The notes below the pieces were generated by a model. It was not told the origin of the DNA, searched no databases, and was given only the letters and a program-made list of their open reading frames with translations. Below are positions 52,884-60,645 of a DNA stretch of 64,000 nucleotides, one piece after another (the first letter of the stretch is position 1; each line of letters begins with the position of its first letter). The position numbers and the translations under genes are program-made. The stretch comes from Thermoanaerobaculia bacterium. Lineage in GTDB: Bacteria; Acidobacteriota; Thermoanaerobaculia; Thermoanaerobaculales; Sulfomarinibacteraceae. The stretch is taken from the NCBI GenBank assembly GCA_027061805.1, contig JAMOWA010000059.1, forward strand, positions 186,001-250,000, written 5' to 3'.

Positions 52884-52899
52884 TGGCACGGGGGATGCA
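52884..52899 (+). promoter_or_regulatory. Sigma-54 (-24/-12) promoter
   Basis: TGGCAC, five bases, ATGCA: the invariant GG (52885-52886) and GC (52897-52898) are separated by exactly ten bases. It lies 24 bases before a small ORF and about 135 before the GcvH-like gene. Confidence 0.75.
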
Positions 52900-52922: not shown

Positions 52923-53030
52923 ATGAACGCATACCAGCCACATCACGGTCCGGAGGGGATCGGGGTGGTGTTCGTCCCCGAGACCACACGGTACCGGGTC
53001 ACCACAGGTGGAGAGACCCGGGGGAGGTAA
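52923..53030 (+). CDS. Small ORF, 35 codons, between sigma-54 promoter and GcvH-like gene
   Basis: Begins with ATG six bases after a GGAGG and ends with TAA three bases before the ATG of the GcvH-like gene. The peptide starts MNAYQPHHGPEGIGVVF and ends TTGGETRGR, with no hydrophobic helix. The next gene's ribosome-binding site (GGGGGAGG) lies inside its last codons, so it may be a translated leader that couples the two, or a small protein in its own right. Confidence 0.5.
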   Translation: MNAYQPHHGPEGIGVVFVPETTRYRVTTGGETRGR

Positions 53031-53032
53031 TC

Positions 53033-53701
53033 ATGGCCGCTGTCATCGTGCTCGTTTCGCTGTTCTTCTTCCTTTCCATCGAGGCCATCGGGCTCATGCT
53101 GAAGCGCCGGCGTGGCGAGGCTCCCGAGCCTTCGCCGGTGAGGGCGTTCGCCCAGGTCCACATTCCCCAGGGGCTCTTCCTGAGCGACGGGCACACCTGG
53201 GCGCGGCTCACCGAGTCCGGAGAGCTCAGGGTTGGTGCCGACGAGTTCCTCGCTGAGGCCCTGGGAGGCGCGGACCGGGTGGAGCTGCCCGCCGTCGGTG
53301 CGCAGGTGAAGAAGGGCGAGCCGCTGGCCACCATCCGGCGCCTGGGCCGGACGCTGGTGGTGCCGGCACCCGTGGACGGGACCGTGGTCGCCACCAACGG
53401 GACCGTGGACCGCCATCCTGCCGCCATCGAGGCGGACCCCTACGGGAGCGGCTGGCTCGCCTCGGTCTGGCCCGTCGAGCATGCCGAGGCCCTTCGGGGG
53501 CTCCGGGTGGGTCAGCGCGCCGTGAAATGGCTGGACAGGGAGATCCAGCGTTTCACCGAGTTCCTCGCGAGACACACGTCCCCGGAGCTCCTGGGGGCAA
53601 CGCTTCCCGACGGGGCACGTCCCGTGGTGGGCTCGGCCCTGGTCCTCGACGACGAGGCATGGGGCGAGTTCCAGAAGGAGTTCACGGGCATCACCGGGTA
53701 G
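53033..53701 (+). CDS. Membrane-anchored GcvH-like protein lacking the lipoyl lysine
   Basis: 222 aa. The N-terminal helix (about 3-22) anchors it, followed by a basic KRRR stop, then a glycine-cleavage-H-like domain: GHTWARLTESGELRVG, ELPAVGAQVKKGEPL, PAPVDGTVVATNGTV and DPYGSGWLASV. In real H proteins ESVKA carries lipoate; here the aligned residues are IRRLG with Gly105 at the lysine position, so it cannot be lipoylated there. A C-terminal extension of about 80 residues follows. It is under the sigma-54 promoter and ends in a clear terminator. Confidence 0.8.
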   Translation: MAAVIVLVSLFFFLSIEAIGLMLKRRRGEAPEPSPVRAFAQVHIPQGLFLSDGHTWARLTESGELRVGADEFLAEALGGADRVELPAVGAQVKKGEPLATIRRLGRTLVVPAPVDGTVVATNGTVDRHPAAIEADPYGSGWLASVWPVEHAEALRGLRVGQRAVKWLDREIQRFTEFLARHTSPELLGATLPDGARPVVGSALVLDDEAWGEFQKEFTGITG

Positions 53702-54090: not shown

Positions 54091-54342
54091 TCACTCCCTC
54101 CTGGGGTGGGATCCGTCGCTGCCGGAGCCTCCGGGCGAGCCGGGTGTCGGGGTGTCTTCAGGGGCCACGGTCACCGGTCCGCCCGGTGTGGAGGCGATGA
54201 CGTTTCCAGGGCCGCTTCCGCCTCTTCTGGGCGGGGCCTCCAGCCGCCGCACGAAGAGGACGAAGGTCACGAGGAAGCAGATCACGAGGATGTATTCGAG
54301 GCCCTTGGTCTCGAAGATGTTGACGTAGTGGTAGTACTCCAT
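54091..54342 (-). CDS. Small single-helix membrane protein of the redox operon
   Basis: 83 aa. One membrane helix at about 15-31 (EYILVICFLVTFVLFV) and a disordered Pro/Gly/Ser-rich tail. Small one-helix subunits accompany NrfD-type complexes (for example HmcD of the Hmc complex), so I infer a subunit role. It follows the NrfD-like gene by 11 bases. Confidence 0.6.
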   Translation of the reverse strand: MEYYHYVNIFETKGLEYILVICFLVTFVLFVRRLEAPPRRGGSGPGNVIASTPGGPVTVAPEDTPTPGSPGGSGSDGSHPRRE

Positions 54343-54353
54343 GGTGTCCCCCC

Positions 54354-55568
54354 TCACGCCGGACGCGGGCCGGGCTTCTCGCGGAGCACCGGCATCCTGA
54401 GGACCACCCAGCGGAACACCCAGATCTCGCAGAAGACCACCATGAAGGTGATCCAGATCTCGGGAATGGACGGAACGTAGGTGGCCGGGTTGTTCCAGTT
54501 GAAGGCGATCATCGAGACGTTCAGCCGGTTGAGGATGATCCCCACCAGCGTCATCACGGCCGCCCAGCGGATGAGGCCCATGCGCCGCTCCCGGTGGCCG
54601 TGTGTGAAGAGTGCGCAGGGGACCAGGGTGAAGATGAGCACCTCCACGAGGAACCATGCACCCCACTTCGTTCCCAGGTAGTCCCAGTGCTGCCCGTGGA
54701 CGAAGATCACGAACTTCACGAAGAGGTAGACGTACATGCTGACCGCCGCACCCTTGGCGAGCCCGAAGACGATGTCCTCGAAGGTGTGGTGGTGTTCGGG
54801 ATCGATCTGGTCGGCGAAGACCCTGTGGCTGATGGTTCCCTCGAAGATGATCATGGAGATCCCGGCGAAGATGGAGGAGACCAGGAAGAGGACCGGCAGG
54901 AACTCGGTGTACCAGAGGGGGTGCAGCTTGGGTTTCGAGAACAGGAAGAGGGCGCCCAGGCCCGACTGGTGGAGGGAGGACAGGGTCACCCCGAAGATCA
55001 CCACACCGAGCGTCATCCTGTTGAGGAACCGCCGGGCGGCCTCCAGGTTCAGCCACTCGGCCACCACGGGGGAGAACTCCAGGAACTCGCTGGCCATGTA
55101 GAGGAGGAAGTGCCATGCCACGAGGAAGAGGATGGAGTTGTAGCCGAACTTGTTCCCGATGATGGGATTGATGATGTGCCACGGCCGCCCCAGGTCGAGG
55201 GTGAGGGCTCCGGCGTAGAACAGGTAGCTCAGGAATCCGTTGAGGACGGTGGCCCGGACGATGGGATGGTACTTCTCGGCGTGCAGCACGTGGACGGTGA
55301 AGGTGATGATGTACGCCCCTCCCGCAAAGGCCACGCCCGTCATCACGTCGAAGCCGATCCACAGTCCCCAGGGGTAGGCCTGGTTGAGATTGGTGACCGA
55401 GCCGAGCCCCCTGGCGAAGCGGATCACCACGAGCACGAGCCCCACCAGGATCACCGGAATCGAGATGATGTTGAAGGGTGTGAGCAGGGGCCCCTTGGGC
55501 CTGAGCTCCTCGCGGAGGAACTCCCAGAGGGACCGCTGCCGTTCGAGGCTCTGGGTTGTGCTGGCCAT
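54354..55568 (-). CDS. HybB/NrfD-like integral membrane subunit
   Basis: A 404-aa protein with about ten membrane helices, related to the polysulfide-reductase NrfD / HybB family that exchanges electrons with membrane quinone. Blocks include YPWGLWIGFDVMTGVAFAGGAY, LNGFLSYLFYAGALTLDLGRPWH and LNVSMIAFNW. Two ATGs are adjacent (55571 and 55568); the second has GGAGG at a workable four-base spacing and shares a base with the upstream stop. It should pair with the ferredoxin-like subunit encoded upstream. Confidence 0.9.
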   Translation of the reverse strand: MASTTQSLERQRSLWEFLREELRPKGPLLTPFNIISIPVILVGLVLVVIRFARGLGSVTNLNQAYPWGLWIGFDVMTGVAFAGGAYIITFTVHVLHAEKYHPIVRATVLNGFLSYLFYAGALTLDLGRPWHIINPIIGNKFGYNSILFLVAWHFLLYMASEFLEFSPVVAEWLNLEAARRFLNRMTLGVVIFGVTLSSLHQSGLGALFLFSKPKLHPLWYTEFLPVLFLVSSIFAGISMIIFEGTISHRVFADQIDPEHHHTFEDIVFGLAKGAAVSMYVYLFVKFVIFVHGQHWDYLGTKWGAWFLVEVLIFTLVPCALFTHGHRERRMGLIRWAAVMTLVGIILNRLNVSMIAFNWNNPATYVPSIPEIWITFMVVFCEIWVFRWVVLRMPVLREKPGPRPA

Positions 55569-56428
55569 CATTCCTCCCCTCCCTCACGCCGTCTCGTGAG
55601 CTCGCTCAGGCCGTAGAGGAGCGGCGGGAACCCGAGGAACACCAGGGGTACCGCGTAGAGGAACTCCCGCGTGTAGTCCGGGTAGGTGTCGGATCCCAGG
55701 TCCGTCCGGAACCCGATCTGATCGAAGGGGACGGCTGCGAGGTAGAGCCAGTCGGTACCGCCGGCCTCGAACTCGCCGTAGATGTGATGGACGTAGTCGT
55801 CGGGGTGGTTGTAGATCCTGGTGCGGGCCTCCTCCATGAGCTCCCGCTTGGTGCCGAAGGTCAGCGCGTCCATGGGGCAGGCCTCCACGCATGCGGGAAG
55901 CTTGCCCTCCTGGAGCCTGTCGTGGCACATGATGCACTTCTGGATGCGCGGGTTGGGGCTCATGTACTCGAACTTCGGGATGTCAAAGGGGCAGGCGACC
56001 ATGCAGTACCGGCACCCCATGCACCGGTCGCCATGCCAGATGATCGGACCCTCGTGGGTCTTCTCCATGGCGTTGGTGGGGCAGGCCGCCGCACAGGCAG
56101 GCTGTCCGCAGTGCATGCACTGCTTCTTGACGAACACCTCGCCCCTGTCGGTGTCGAACCTGTTGACCACGGTCCACTGCGTGGTGGTGGTGTCGCGGTG
56201 CTCCGCGAGCGCCTCGTCGGTCCTGGGGTCCGGGACCGGAAGACCGTGAGCCTCGGCGCAGGCCACCTCGCACTGGCGGCATCCGATGCACCGGGTGGTG
56301 TCCACGAGGATGCCGACGAACTCGGGGGCCCCGGCCGATGTGCCTGTGGAGCCGGACGCCGCGGCCGTGCCGGTGGCGGCCAGTGCCGTGGCTGCCCCGG
56401 CCAGGCCCAGGAATTCTCTTCGATCCAT
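55568..56428 (-). CDS. Tat-exported HybA-like ferredoxin with C-terminal membrane anchor
   Basis: 286 aa. It begins MDRREFLGLAGAA, a twin-arginine signal. Sixteen cysteines in four groups (47/50/53/57, 104/107/112/116, 136/139/142/146, 165/168/180/184) should hold four [4Fe-4S] clusters. A membrane helix at about 256-275 anchors the C-terminus, as in HybA. It would carry electrons between the NrfD-like quinone site and the periplasmic cytochrome. GGAGG precedes ATG 56428. Confidence 0.93.
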   Translation of the reverse strand: MDRREFLGLAGAATALAATGTAAASGSTGTSAGAPEFVGILVDTTRCIGCRQCEVACAEAHGLPVPDPRTDEALAEHRDTTTTQWTVVNRFDTDRGEVFVKKQCMHCGQPACAAACPTNAMEKTHEGPIIWHGDRCMGCRYCMVACPFDIPKFEYMSPNPRIQKCIMCHDRLQEGKLPACVEACPMDALTFGTKRELMEEARTRIYNHPDDYVHHIYGEFEAGGTDWLYLAAVPFDQIGFRTDLGSDTYPDYTREFLYAVPLVFLGFPPLLYGLSELTRRREGGEE

Positions 56429-56448: not shown

Positions 56449-56949
56449 TCACCAGGGCCGGTGCGGGCCCGTGTGGCAGTTCTCGCAGCTCCGAGAGGCC
56501 TCGGAGCCGGTCCCGATCTCGTGGCATCCGCTGCACATGCGATGGACGGCCACCTTCGTCGAGACGTGATCGCATCGATGCTGCGTGGTGGGCCCGTGGC
56601 AGGCCTGGCATCGATGGGCGGTTGCGGTGGCCAGCTTTCCACGGTGGCAGGTGTCGCAGTCGACGCCGCATTCGCGGAGGTACCGGGGGTGCGGCGTCGA
56701 GAGCTCCGGGGCCTCCACGGGGTGGTGGCAGTCCTCGCACGCGATCTCGAGGTCATCGATGTGGAAGGCGTGCGGGAAGTGCACCTCCCCCACCGTCGAG
56801 AGATAGGAGATCTCCTCGGGTGGGTCCTGGGTGTCCGCCGTGCCGTCACCGGCTCCGCCGGGCGGGGCCACGGCAGCCACGGCGACGACGGCCGCCGCAA
56901 GGACGAGTCGGACCGCGACACGCCGGGGTCTCTCGACCTTTCCGGGCAT
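56449..56949 (-). CDS. Periplasmic pentahaem c-type cytochrome
   Basis: 166 aa with an N-terminal signal segment (about 1-35). Five CXXCH motifs are at residues 71-75, 98-102, 114-118, 139-143 and 155-159. Short spacing and extra histidines near the motifs suggest bis-His ligation of the cytochrome c3/c7 type. AGGAG lies seven bases before ATG 56949. It is the likely periplasmic electron carrier or subunit for the FeS/NrfD pair. Confidence 0.9.
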   Translation of the reverse strand: MPGKVERPRRVAVRLVLAAAVVAVAAVAPPGGAGDGTADTQDPPEEISYLSTVGEVHFPHAFHIDDLEIACEDCHHPVEAPELSTPHPRYLRECGVDCDTCHRGKLATATAHRCQACHGPTTQHRCDHVSTKVAVHRMCSGCHEIGTGSEASRSCENCHTGPHRPW

Positions 56950-56985: not shown

Positions 56986-57561
56986 CTACGGTGGGTCCTG
57001 CTCATCCAGGTGGTACGGGATCTCCTCGGGAACACCCACGCGCACGGCACACGCGGTGCAGTAGGCGGCATCTTTGAGATCCACCTCCTCGGGAAGACGT
57101 GAAGGGCTCATGGCGCACCAGGGCACCCGGCAGTGCACGAGACCGAAGGTGTGCCCCAGCTCGTGGAGCACCTCCTTGAGGAGTCGGTGCCGGAGAACCT
57201 CCGGATCGACGGTGCCGGCAACCGCATCCGGGTGGAGCCGGAAGGTGGAGGCCACACCTACCGGACCGTCCAGCTGTGCCGAACCGAACACGTGGGTGAA
57301 CACCGGCAGGAAGAGGTCCACGTCGGTCACGGCGATGCGGCGGACGCCAGGGGGGGGCGGGGGCACCAGAAGCATCTCCAGGAGCGCCGAGGCCAGGTAC
57401 TGCTGGCGATGGTGGTCGAAGGCAGGAACCGGGCTGATGGAGGCCTCCGCGATCCAGACGGCGTGGGAGAGCCTGCTGACCAGGTCCTCCCGGAGGAGAC
57501 GCATCACGACCGGCGCCACCGCGCCGATGGATACGAGCTCCAGCTGCCAGGAGAGCGTCAC
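56986..57561 (-). CDS. Archaemetzincin-family zinc metalloprotease
   Basis: 191 aa without signal peptide. The extended motif HELGHTFGLVHC (His133, Glu134, His137, His143, Cys144) and the later cysteines 149, 168 and 171 give both the catalytic zinc and the structural Cys4 zinc of archaemetzincins. GTG 57561 is preceded by GGGGAG. It lies between the regulator and cytochrome genes in one run, so it is probably coexpressed with them. No substrate is known for bacterial members. Confidence 0.88.
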   Translation of the reverse strand: MTLSWQLELVSIGAVAPVVMRLLREDLVSRLSHAVWIAEASISPVPAFDHHRQQYLASALLEMLLVPPPPPGVRRIAVTDVDLFLPVFTHVFGSAQLDGPVGVASTFRLHPDAVAGTVDPEVLRHRLLKEVLHELGHTFGLVHCRVPWCAMSPSRLPEEVDLKDAAYCTACAVRVGVPEEIPYHLDEQDPP

Positions 57562-57577: not shown

Positions 57578-58930
57578 TCACGGCCTTTCGATCCCGTATT
57601 TCTTCATCTTGTTGTACAGCGTGACCCGGTCGATCCCCAGCATCTTCGCGGCCCGGGTGATGTTGAACTCGTTCAGCCTGAGGACCTTGAGGATATGACG
57701 GTGTTCCATGGCCTGGAGCGAGAGGTCATCCTCGTCCGCTCCCGCCTCCCTGGTGGTCCGCCCGACGATGGGAAGGTGCCCGGGCTCGATCTGTCCCTCG
57801 GGACAGACCACGAGCGCCCGCTCGATGGCGTTGGCGAGCTCCCGCACGTTTCCGGGCCAGGGGTACCGCAGCAGCAGCTCTCTGGCTGCGGAGGAGAACC
57901 CCGTCACCCGCCGGCCCATGGCCGCGGCGTACTTCTTCAGGAAGTGCTCCGCGATGGCCATGGTGTCCTCGGGCCTCTCGCGGAGGGGGGGAATGTGGAT
58001 CTGGAAGACGTTGATCCTGTAGTAGAGGTCCTCACGGAAGGTGCCCTCCCTGACGGCCTTCTCCAGGTCCCTGTTCGTGGCGCAGACCACCCTGAAGTCC
58101 ACCGGGATCTCCTGGGTTCCTCCCACACGGGTGATCTTCCGGTCCTCGAGCGCCCGCAGGAGGTCCACCTGCACCCTTGGCGTGATCTCGCCGATCTCGT
58201 CCAGGAAGAGCGTACCGCCGTCGGCGAGCTCGAGCTTGCCCTTCCGCCTGGAGGCGGCGCCTGTGAAGGCTCCCTTCTCGTGACCGAAGAGCTCGGATTC
58301 CAGGATTCCCTCCGAAAGGGCGCCGCAGTTGACGGCCACCATGGGGCCGAAGGAGCGGGGGCTCCTGGCGTGGATCAGCCGCGCGATCAGCTCCTTGCCG
58401 GTTCCGGATTCACCACGGATCAGGACCGTGGCATCGGTGGGGGCCACGGAGTCCACGAGCTCCAGCACCCGCTTCATGGCGGCGCTGGACCCCGTCACGA
58501 TCTCGTGACCGATGCCGGCGAGGCGCTGCTTGAGGGCCACGTTCTCCTCCCTGAGACGGACCTTCTCGCACGCCTTCTCCACCACCCGGGACAGCTCCTC
58601 GGGATCGAAGGGCTTGACCAGGTAGTCGTAGGCACCCTCCTTGAGCGCCTGGACGGCGGTGGAGACCGAGGCGTAGGCCGTGACCAGGATGATCGCCACC
58701 TCCGGATCCACCTCGTGGATCCGCTTCTGGAGCTCGAGACCGTCCATCCCCGGCATCCGGATGTCGGTGATCACCACGTCGAAGTGCTGGCGTCCCAGGA
58801 GTGCCAGCGCCTCCTTGCCGCCGGATGCGGTGCTGACCTCATAGCCGTCCTCGATGAACCAGTGGGAGAGCGATTCACGGACGTGGAGCTCGTCATCCAC
58901 GATGAGAAGGTGGGGGGTTCTGGGTGTCAT
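57578..58930 (-). CDS. NtrC-type sigma-54-dependent response regulator
   Basis: 450 aa. The receiver domain has Asp56 in VVITDIRMPGMDG and the switch Lys in LVKPFD. The AAA+ domain has Walker A GESGTGKE and the sigma-54-contacting GAFTGA loop. The C-terminal Fis-type helix-turn-helix (NITRAAKMLGIDRVTLYNKMKKYGI) binds DNA. It overlaps the kinase gene (ATGA) and is the obvious activator of the sigma-54 promoters at 52884 and 60630. Confidence 0.95.
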   Translation of the reverse strand: MTPRTPHLLIVDDELHVRESLSHWFIEDGYEVSTASGGKEALALLGRQHFDVVITDIRMPGMDGLELQKRIHEVDPEVAIILVTAYASVSTAVQALKEGAYDYLVKPFDPEELSRVVEKACEKVRLREENVALKQRLAGIGHEIVTGSSAAMKRVLELVDSVAPTDATVLIRGESGTGKELIARLIHARSPRSFGPMVAVNCGALSEGILESELFGHEKGAFTGAASRRKGKLELADGGTLFLDEIGEITPRVQVDLLRALEDRKITRVGGTQEIPVDFRVVCATNRDLEKAVREGTFREDLYYRINVFQIHIPPLRERPEDTMAIAEHFLKKYAAAMGRRVTGFSSAARELLLRYPWPGNVRELANAIERALVVCPEGQIEPGHLPIVGRTTREAGADEDDLSLQAMEHRHILKVLRLNEFNITRAAKMLGIDRVTLYNKMKKYGIERP

Positions 58931-60528
58931 GCGTCGGTCTCCTCTTCCGCGGACCGGTGCGGAGTCTCCGGGAGATGGATGGTGAAGCGGCACCCCTTTC
59001 CGGGCCGGGTCTCCAGATCGATCGACCCTCCGTGCCGTTCCACGATGCCGTACACCACGGACAGGCCCAGGCCCACGCCCTCCCCCTGCTCCTTGGTGGT
59101 GAAGAAGGGCTCGAAGGCGTGGAGGGCCACCTCCGGCGGCATGCCGGGGCCGGTGTCCGCGACCTCGATCTCCACACCCCCGTCCGGGCTCCGCCGGGTG
59201 GTGATGCGGACCTCGCCGCCCTCCTCCATGGCCTGGCTCGCGTTGATGAGCAGCGCCATGAGTGCCTGCTGGATCTGGCCGGGGTCCGCCACGATCGTGG
59301 GGAGGTCCTCGCCAAGCTCGGTCGTCGCCTCCACGTTGCCGAGCTCCAGCTTGTGGTGGACGAGGAAGAGGGACTTCTCGACCACATCGTTGACGTCGGT
59401 GGGGGTGAACTCGCCCCCGCGGCGGCGGGCAAAGGACAGGAGCTGCGAGACGATCTCCCCGCAGCGGGTGGCCTCCGAGGCGATGGACTCCAGGTACCCG
59501 AGGTTCTCCCGGCAGTCCTCGGTGAGCTCCTGGCCCCTCAGGCGGCGGACCAGGATCCTGGCGTAGGTCACCACGCTGGAGAGCGGATTGTTGATCTCGT
59601 GGGCCACCACCGCGGCGAGCTTCCCCAGGGAGGCCATCTTCTCCACCTGGAGGATCTGGCTCTGGGCCCTCTCGAGCTCGTCCGTCTTCTGCCGTACCCG
59701 TTCCTCCAGCGTCCGGCCCCAGTCCAGGAGCTCGCTGTGGGCCGCCTCCAGGTCCCGGGCCATCCTGTTGAACGCACGGGCGAGCACACCGATCTCGTCG
59801 TCGGTGAGCTCCGGGACGCGGGCAGAGAGATCGCCCGATGCCAGCTTCTCCGTCTCCCGGATGAGCTTCCTCACCGGGCGGTGGACCATCCGCTGGGTGG
59901 CCACCGTGGTGACCGCCACCACCAGGAGGATGCCGATCACGCTCGCGATCAGGAGCTCCACGGCACTCTCGTGGAGCACGGCGTCGTAGGGCCCCAGCGC
60001 CAGGTTCACGTCCAGGACCCCCAGCAGGCGCTCCCTCGGGTCGTGGACGTGGCACGAGGCCGTCGAGCAGTCCGGTGCGTTGCGGATGGTCTGGGTGATC
60101 CCCAGGATCCTGTGGTCGCCCCGCCGCAGCACGCGGGCCCGCTCCTCGGTGGGCAGCGAGTCGGGTGGCGTGTGGCTCTGGTGGCAGGCAACGCACTGCT
60201 CCGCATGACGGTCGATCTCGGTCCCGATCTCCGTGGGATCGGTGGAGTAGGCGATGCGGCCGCCCTTCTGGATGATCCGGATCCTCTCGATGTCCCGCTG
60301 GCGGGCCAGCGTGTCGATGGTCTTCTGGATCCGGGCCCTGTCGTTGTGGAGCATGGCCTCGCGGGTGGCCGCCGCCACCAGGTCCGCCAGCTGGGCCCCG
60401 TTGAGCCGGAGGATCCGCATGGCCCCCTTCTCCTGGATCTTCAGGTTCAGCGCGGCCGCAGCCCCGAAGATGACGATCAGGAAGGCGGTGATGATCAGGA
60501 CCAGCTTGGCGGCGATGCTCTTCTGCAT
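58927..60528 (-). CDS. Sensor histidine kinase with haem-c binding periplasmic domain
   Basis: 533 aa. Membrane helices at about 8-28 and 189-210 enclose a periplasmic sensor of 160 residues. That sensor holds CVACH (112-116) and a CX4CH at 154-160 (CSTASCH), both forms known to attach haem c. A HAMP domain, a coiled coil, the HisKA H-box with His310 (AHEINNPLSS) and an HATPase_c domain (DTGPGMPP, GVGLGLSVV) follow. It begins the redox operon behind a sigma-54 promoter. It may read the redox state or a gaseous ligand through haem. Confidence 0.88.
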   Translation of the reverse strand: MQKSIAAKLVLIITAFLIVIFGAAAALNLKIQEKGAMRILRLNGAQLADLVAAATREAMLHNDRARIQKTIDTLARQRDIERIRIIQKGGRIAYSTDPTEIGTEIDRHAEQCVACHQSHTPPDSLPTEERARVLRRGDHRILGITQTIRNAPDCSTASCHVHDPRERLLGVLDVNLALGPYDAVLHESAVELLIASVIGILLVVAVTTVATQRMVHRPVRKLIRETEKLASGDLSARVPELTDDEIGVLARAFNRMARDLEAAHSELLDWGRTLEERVRQKTDELERAQSQILQVEKMASLGKLAAVVAHEINNPLSSVVTYARILVRRLRGQELTEDCRENLGYLESIASEATRCGEIVSQLLSFARRRGGEFTPTDVNDVVEKSLFLVHHKLELGNVEATTELGEDLPTIVADPGQIQQALMALLINASQAMEEGGEVRITTRRSPDGGVEIEVADTGPGMPPEVALHAFEPFFTTKEQGEGVGLGLSVVYGIVERHGGSIDLETRPGKGCRFTIHLPETPHRSAEEETDA

Positions 60529-60629: not shown

Positions 60630-60645
60630 TGCAACGCACGTGCCG
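60630..60645 (-). promoter_or_regulatory. Sigma-54 promoter of the sensor/redox operon
   Basis: Read on the minus strand: CGGCAC, five bases, TTGCA; GG and GC are ten bases apart, only the first base differs from the TGGCAC consensus. Start point about 90 bases before the kinase ATG. Confidence 0.75.

Follow-up and report, generated by a model that had tools for sequence, protein, structure and literature searches.

A lysine-less, GcvH-like protein family encoded beside heme-c kinase, archaemetzincin and Hmc-like redox genes

The window, by which we mean the whole 64,000-nucleotide stretch of Thermoanaerobaculia DNA that was analysed, carries at 53033–53701 a gene for a 222-residue GcvH-like protein. 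Its ATG at 53033 is preceded by a GGGGGAGG ribosome-binding site and its stop is at 53701. A run of genes on the opposite strand encodes a sensor kinase, an NtrC-type regulator, an M54 metalloprotease, a small multiheme cytochrome and HybA/HmcB-, NrfD/HmcC- and HmcD-like proteins. The features of this region, with the evidence for each, are as follows.

52884–52899, plus strand: sigma54-type –24/–12 site TGGCACGGGGGATGCA (TGGCACG-N4-ATGCA), 149 nt before the ATG (motif scan; conserved in homologues)
53033–53701, plus strand: GcvH-like, lysine-less protein of 222 residues, predicted to be membrane anchored (open reading frame, ribosome-binding site, Pfam GCV_H, AlphaFold2 model)
53036–53110, plus strand: predicted N-terminal transmembrane helix, residues 2–26, with KRRR at its end (hydropathy 2.53, charge rule, model helix)
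53156–53560, plus strand: H-protein fold, residues 42–176 (VIA-align to 1htp; Foldseek)
53345–53347, plus strand: Gly105 codon (GGC) at the lipoyl lysine position (alignments; model hairpin)
53561–53698, plus strand: C-terminal helical extension, residues 177–222, with family-wide DG (193–194) and F217 (model, conservation)
54091–54342, minus strand: HmcD-like small membrane protein (NF045712, 15.4 bits, below the cut-off of 34)
54354–55571, minus strand: NrfD/HmcC-like integral membrane protein (NF045714, 410.7 bits, cut-off 550; PF03916)
55568–56428, minus strand: HybA/HmcB-like Tat-exported [4Fe-4S] protein (NF045715, 348.6 bits, cut-off 420)
56449–56949, minus strand: small c7/c3-type multiheme cytochrome, 166 residues (PF14522, PF02085; TIGR04257 just under cut-off)
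56986–57561, minus strand: M54 archaemetzincin-type metalloprotease (PF07998, 66.5 bits; HELGHTFGLVHC motif)
57578–58930, minus strand: NtrC-type response regulator with receiver, sigma54 activator and Fis HTH (Pfam domains)
58927–60528, minus strand: sensor histidine kinase whose periplasmic region holds CXXCH and CX4CH (Pfam, motif scan)
60630–60645, minus strand: sigma54-type site CGGCACGTGCGTTGCA upstream of the kinase operon (motif scan)

We compared the GcvH-like protein with H proteins by profile, sequence and structure. Pfam GCV_H covers residues 52–166 with 71.4 bits (E 8e-20, cut-off 22.2). In a PDB sequence search the Thermus H protein was matched at E 1.3e-15, and glycine cleavage system H proteins ranked best among the solved relatives. 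The AlphaFold2 model, made with 24 sequences, has a pLDDT of 89.7. Aligned to the pea H protein (1htp) with VIA-align, it gave Z 18.9 and an rmsd of 1.6 over 131 residues, and Foldseek gave TMt values of 0.91–0.93 for the H fold. An earlier note on this DNA had claimed that the GcvH fold is intact, and the superposed model does contain a complete H fold. The same model gave no significant match in a viral structure library. Like GcvH (PF01597, TIGR00527), the protein has the complete fold (Z 15–19 to solved H proteins, with 22–33% identity) and the DPYG.GW and P..G core motifs. Unlike GcvH, it has neither the lipoyl lysine nor ESxK, it has a membrane anchor, a C-terminal extension and other neighbours, and its 222 residues with a predicted transmembrane helix compare with a soluble protein of about 130. 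A second, ordinary GcvH encoded in the same genome keeps ESVKA. That the open reading frame is a chance or artefact was ruled out by the ribosome-binding site, the homologous family and dN/dS.

Scores against curated NCBIfam models were 68.9 bits for TIGR00527 (the GcvH equivalog, cut-off 115.85), 40.9 bits for TIGR03077 (not_gcvH, cut-off 144.05) and 28.9 bits for NF045810 (GcvH-related protein, cut-off 150). The lysine-less family falls within Pfam GCV_H and reaches the cut-off of no curated NCBIfam equivalog, and the protein differs from the GcvH-like proteins outside glycine cleavage that the last two models describe in scoring far under their cut-offs. As a comparison, GcvH-L (5a35; Z 12.3) also uses the H fold outside glycine cleavage, and LbpA of the sHdr system is a GcvH-like protein of this kind. 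H proteins are the textbook lipoyl carriers, defined by their lipoyl lysine, and GcvH-L and LbpA both keep that lysine and carry lipoate.

In alignments with the Thermus H protein and with the genome's own GcvH, the ESVKA segment falls on RRLGR, placing Gly105 at the lipoyl lysine position. The earlier note had proposed this replacement by glycine and had named a lysine within the modelled hairpin as evidence that would speak against it. The model has a hairpin with strands at residues 97–103 and 106–111 joined by a turn, and there is no lysine in residues 95–112; the nearest are K93 and K94, which precede the hairpin. A lysine missed through a register shift is thereby also ruled out.

The earlier note had also suggested looking at homologues for the same loss, and it extends to essentially the whole family. 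At the lysine column K occurs in 1 of 87 C-extended homologues (from Acidobacteriota and from phylum samples of a Deltaproteobacteria MAG, L112, and Corallococcus, L145) as compared with 63 of 66 short canonical GcvH proteins from the same search; these column counts, like the promoter counts below, are drawn from related sequences and overstate independence. The single K stands beside a second K. Among 56 aligned Acidobacteriota homologues the lysine is absent from all except one with a K of uncertain register, and the two family lysines at or adjoining the column (L054, L171) appear to reflect the alignment register, neither standing in an ESxK. Seven pairs of family members gave dN/dS values of about 0.07–0.2, and the lysine-less family is thus under purifying selection. 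Together, these data indicate that the absence of the lysine is more than chance.

Of the 119 Acidobacteriota genomes sampled, 28 have the family, which is also present in the other two phylum samples. In a tree of the H domain only, one branch parted all 45 lysine-less sequences from the canonical ones with a support of 91, a value that was not starred and that comes from few alignment columns. Residues conserved in the family are H54, W56, G68, D70, P113, G116, DPY.GW, R173, DG193–194 and F217.

The added N-terminal helix noticed earlier is present in the model at residues 2–26, where hydropathy reaches 2.53. Among the 46 family members whose helix is clear, 41 are more positively charged behind it than ahead of it. 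The KRRR at the helix end and the positive-inside rule place the H domain in the cytoplasm, and we predict from this that the protein is anchored in the inner membrane with its H domain on the cytoplasmic side. The C-terminal extension is shorter than first thought. It had been put at 80 residues; the H fold aligns to residues 42–176 of the model, which leaves about 46 residues (177–222), or 56 if everything past the Pfam match is included.

The redox genes of the opposite-strand run resemble those of the Hmc complex of Desulfovibrio in that they are closest to the HmcB and HmcC models and, weakly, to the HmcD model. They differ in that all fall below the equivalog cut-offs and in that there is no 16-heme HmcA at the locus; the adjacent 166-residue cytochrome scored 14.3 bits against the HmcA model, under the cut-off of 400. 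Judged by these scores, the HmcB-like and HmcC-like neighbours are relatives of Hmc proteins and not equivalogs. We know of no H-domain protein in described Hmc operons.

Heme-c Cache sensor kinases (DUF3365/sCache_heme) carry a periplasmic CXXCH in a histidine kinase (PMC12889525). The kinase in the window shares the periplasmic CXXCH and differs by an added CX4CH; in a sequence-level search of one library, run up to E 1, DUF3365 did not match it. At least one heme-c motif was present in 31 of 32 homologues of this kinase, and CXXCH plus CX4CH in nearly all. The M54 neighbour has an active site of the HEXXHXXGXXHC type, which is the archaemetzincin consensus given in PMC3427221.

We then compared the neighbourhoods of family genes and canonical gcvH genes. 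HybA/HmcB-like and NrfD/HmcC-like genes occurred at 27 of 41 family loci, and M54 with a regulator and a kinase at 20 of 41, as compared with 0 of 61 canonical gcvH loci for either set, although the canonical loci comprised more total sequence. Among 20 loci from the Deltaproteobacteria MAG and Corallococcus phylum samples, which were chosen among the better matches and not at random, 14 had M54, regulator and kinase, 11 had HybA and NrfD, and five had M54, regulator and kinase but lacked HybA and NrfD. Seven loci (L037, L038, L040, L064, L066, L069, L071) had no redox or signalling genes within the locus stretch examined. Across the 119 Acidobacteriota genomes, an HmcC-like gene was found in 25 of 28 with the family and 19 of 91 without it (Fisher p 7e-11), and M54 in 19 of 28 and 21 of 91 (p 2e-5). 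The tie to heme-c kinase, NtrC-type regulator and M54, which the earlier note had overlooked, is at least as close as the tie to redox genes. Because the signalling and M54 tie persists where redox genes are absent, a pure structural redox subunit is not the sole reading. The earlier suggestion that the protein is part of the redox complex gains from these associations, and from the HmcD–H fusions described below, and does not stand as the only account.

Fusions give further examples of linkage. HmcD-like helices are fused N-terminally to lysine-less H domains in other genomes, and the N-terminus of the HmcD-like protein at 54091–54342 is of the same type. A receiver domain (PF00072) precedes the H domain in L055:4247–5062 and L058:7932–8693 (minus strand), and both genes adjoin kinase, HybA and NrfD genes. 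Some members have Cys-rich CxWMxAG...KLC...CxxC segments ahead of the H domain. Proteins with HdrA, FlpD and molybdopterin-binding domains end in a lysine-less H domain at L181 and L207, the latter in a frame of 977 codons with an HdrA-type part (L207:8607–11537, minus strand), and a HoxU-like FeS protein does so at L195. The soluble fusions are cytoplasmic contexts linked to redox or signalling. What recurs most often is an H domain that lacks the lysine, lies on the cytoplasmic side and is physically or genetically linked to redox and signalling proteins. Gene association and fusion are evidence of linkage and not of mechanism.

Sigma54-type matches in the window numbered three, with 0.31 expected. 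A match scoring at least 10 of 12 lies upstream of 34 of 72 family genes; none of the 64 canonical gcvH genes has one, and random stretches gave 16 in 1120. The 72 family regions are from related sequences and a few are one locus fetched twice. The gene at 53033–53701 is a separate transcription unit with such a site before it, and thus it is probably part of the regulon that the neighbouring sigma54 activator controls. Inverted repeats lay upstream of 13 of 29 sigma54 sites (6 expected) and had no common sequence, and TGTTGA/TCAACA, present at 15 of the 29, is no more than a lead. Between the site and the H-domain gene there is a possible 35-codon open reading frame (52923–53030, plus strand; MNAYQPHHGPEG...).

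The intact fold, the family-wide loss of the lysine under selection, the membrane anchor and the scores below the equivalog cut-offs bear out the earlier idea of a re-purposed H protein. We favour, with moderate confidence, the reading that it is a non-lipoylated, membrane-anchored H-fold adaptor with a cytoplasmic H domain in a conserved redox-linked signalling module; the docking and its partners are what we infer. The module would comprise the heme-c sensor kinase, the NtrC-type sigma54 activator, the M54 metalloprotease and an HmcB/C/D-like membrane electron-transfer unit. The kinase hemes may sense the redox or ligand state of the periplasm, and the regulator would turn on the sigma54 promoters of its own operon and of the H-domain gene, a direction of signal flow that we also infer. 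The H domain, having no swinging lipoyl arm, could serve as a rigid cytoplasmic docking surface between the NrfD/HmcD-like membrane redox unit and the regulator, the protease or FeS proteins. Such a role would account for the loss of the arm with the fold kept. Counting against this reading are the seven loci with no redox or signalling genes in the stretch examined and the sampled genomes of family f33, which have no M54. A broader proposal, which is less likely than not, is that H domains without the lysine form a general docking output module under phospho- or redox control, which arose by one ancestral loss of lipoylation and acts as the cytoplasmic hub of a hitherto undescribed system of heme-c kinase, sigma54 regulator, archaemetzincin and HmcBCD-like unit in at least three bacterial phyla, with receiver–H proteins as the direct phospho-switched form.

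Alternatively, the protein could simply belong to a quinone/FeS membrane complex of the Hmc type as an accessory structural subunit, with the two-component genes and the protease only regulating or maturing that complex and making no contact with the H protein. The HybA and NrfD genes at 27 loci and the HmcC-like gene in 25 of 28 genomes fit this, as do the HmcD-like N-termini fused to the H domain directly after NrfD. However, L202, L209, L210, L214 and L215 have the H domain with M54, response regulator and histidine kinase and lack HybA and NrfD, and genomes G022, G035 and G048 have the family without an HmcC-like NrfD, with M54 about 2 kb away in G022. We consider this account rather unlikely. 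An improbable alternative is that the H domain is a regulated target or partner of M54, which would bind or cut it to end or start a signal. M54 adjoins the lysine-less H gene across three phylum samples and is present in 19 of 19 family-bearing genomes once family f33 is left out, an exclusion decided after the data were seen. By contrast, M54 is absent from the sampled f33 genomes, which include a receiver–H fusion, and it also occurs in 21 of the 91 genomes lacking the family.

It seems very improbable that the protein is still a carrier, with a cofactor held non-covalently or by another residue. In its favour, the H fold and hairpin are intact and redox proteins are fused or linked to many family members, but the hairpin tip has no conserved Cys, Lys or Ser. 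The residue there varies across the family (G, S, A, N, E, R, Q and others), which is unlike a modified residue. A decaying gcvH copy with no function has only the lipoyl lysine loss in its favour and is hardly credible, since dN/dS is low and the C-terminal motif, promoter and neighbours are all conserved; the ribosome-binding site and the family likewise rule it out.

The H fold was known already. We found no published description of the lysine-less family in the open-licence literature, which likewise gave no description of GcvH-like proteins with NrfD, Hmc, response regulators, Geobacter or archaemetzincin and no H-domain/M54 gene partnership. The family has kept the H fold and lost the lipoyl chemistry. 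In several bacterial phyla the genes of this large family occur alongside those for heme-sensing regulators, a metalloprotease and electron-transfer proteins, and thus many genes annotated as gcvH probably have another function. The data offer a testable role for extra 'gcvH' genes, place bacterial archaemetzincins in a functional context for the first time, and would link periplasmic heme sensing to sigma54 control of an HmcBC-like complex.

Tandem H-domain genes were seen in two settings. Close relatives at L077:5367–6733 and L078:9266–10633 carry two lysine-less H proteins of the window type in tandem. A Chloroflexi MAG (L123:8782–10387, plus strand) has three tandem short H-like proteins that have the lysine, in ESGK, ESAK and EAAK.
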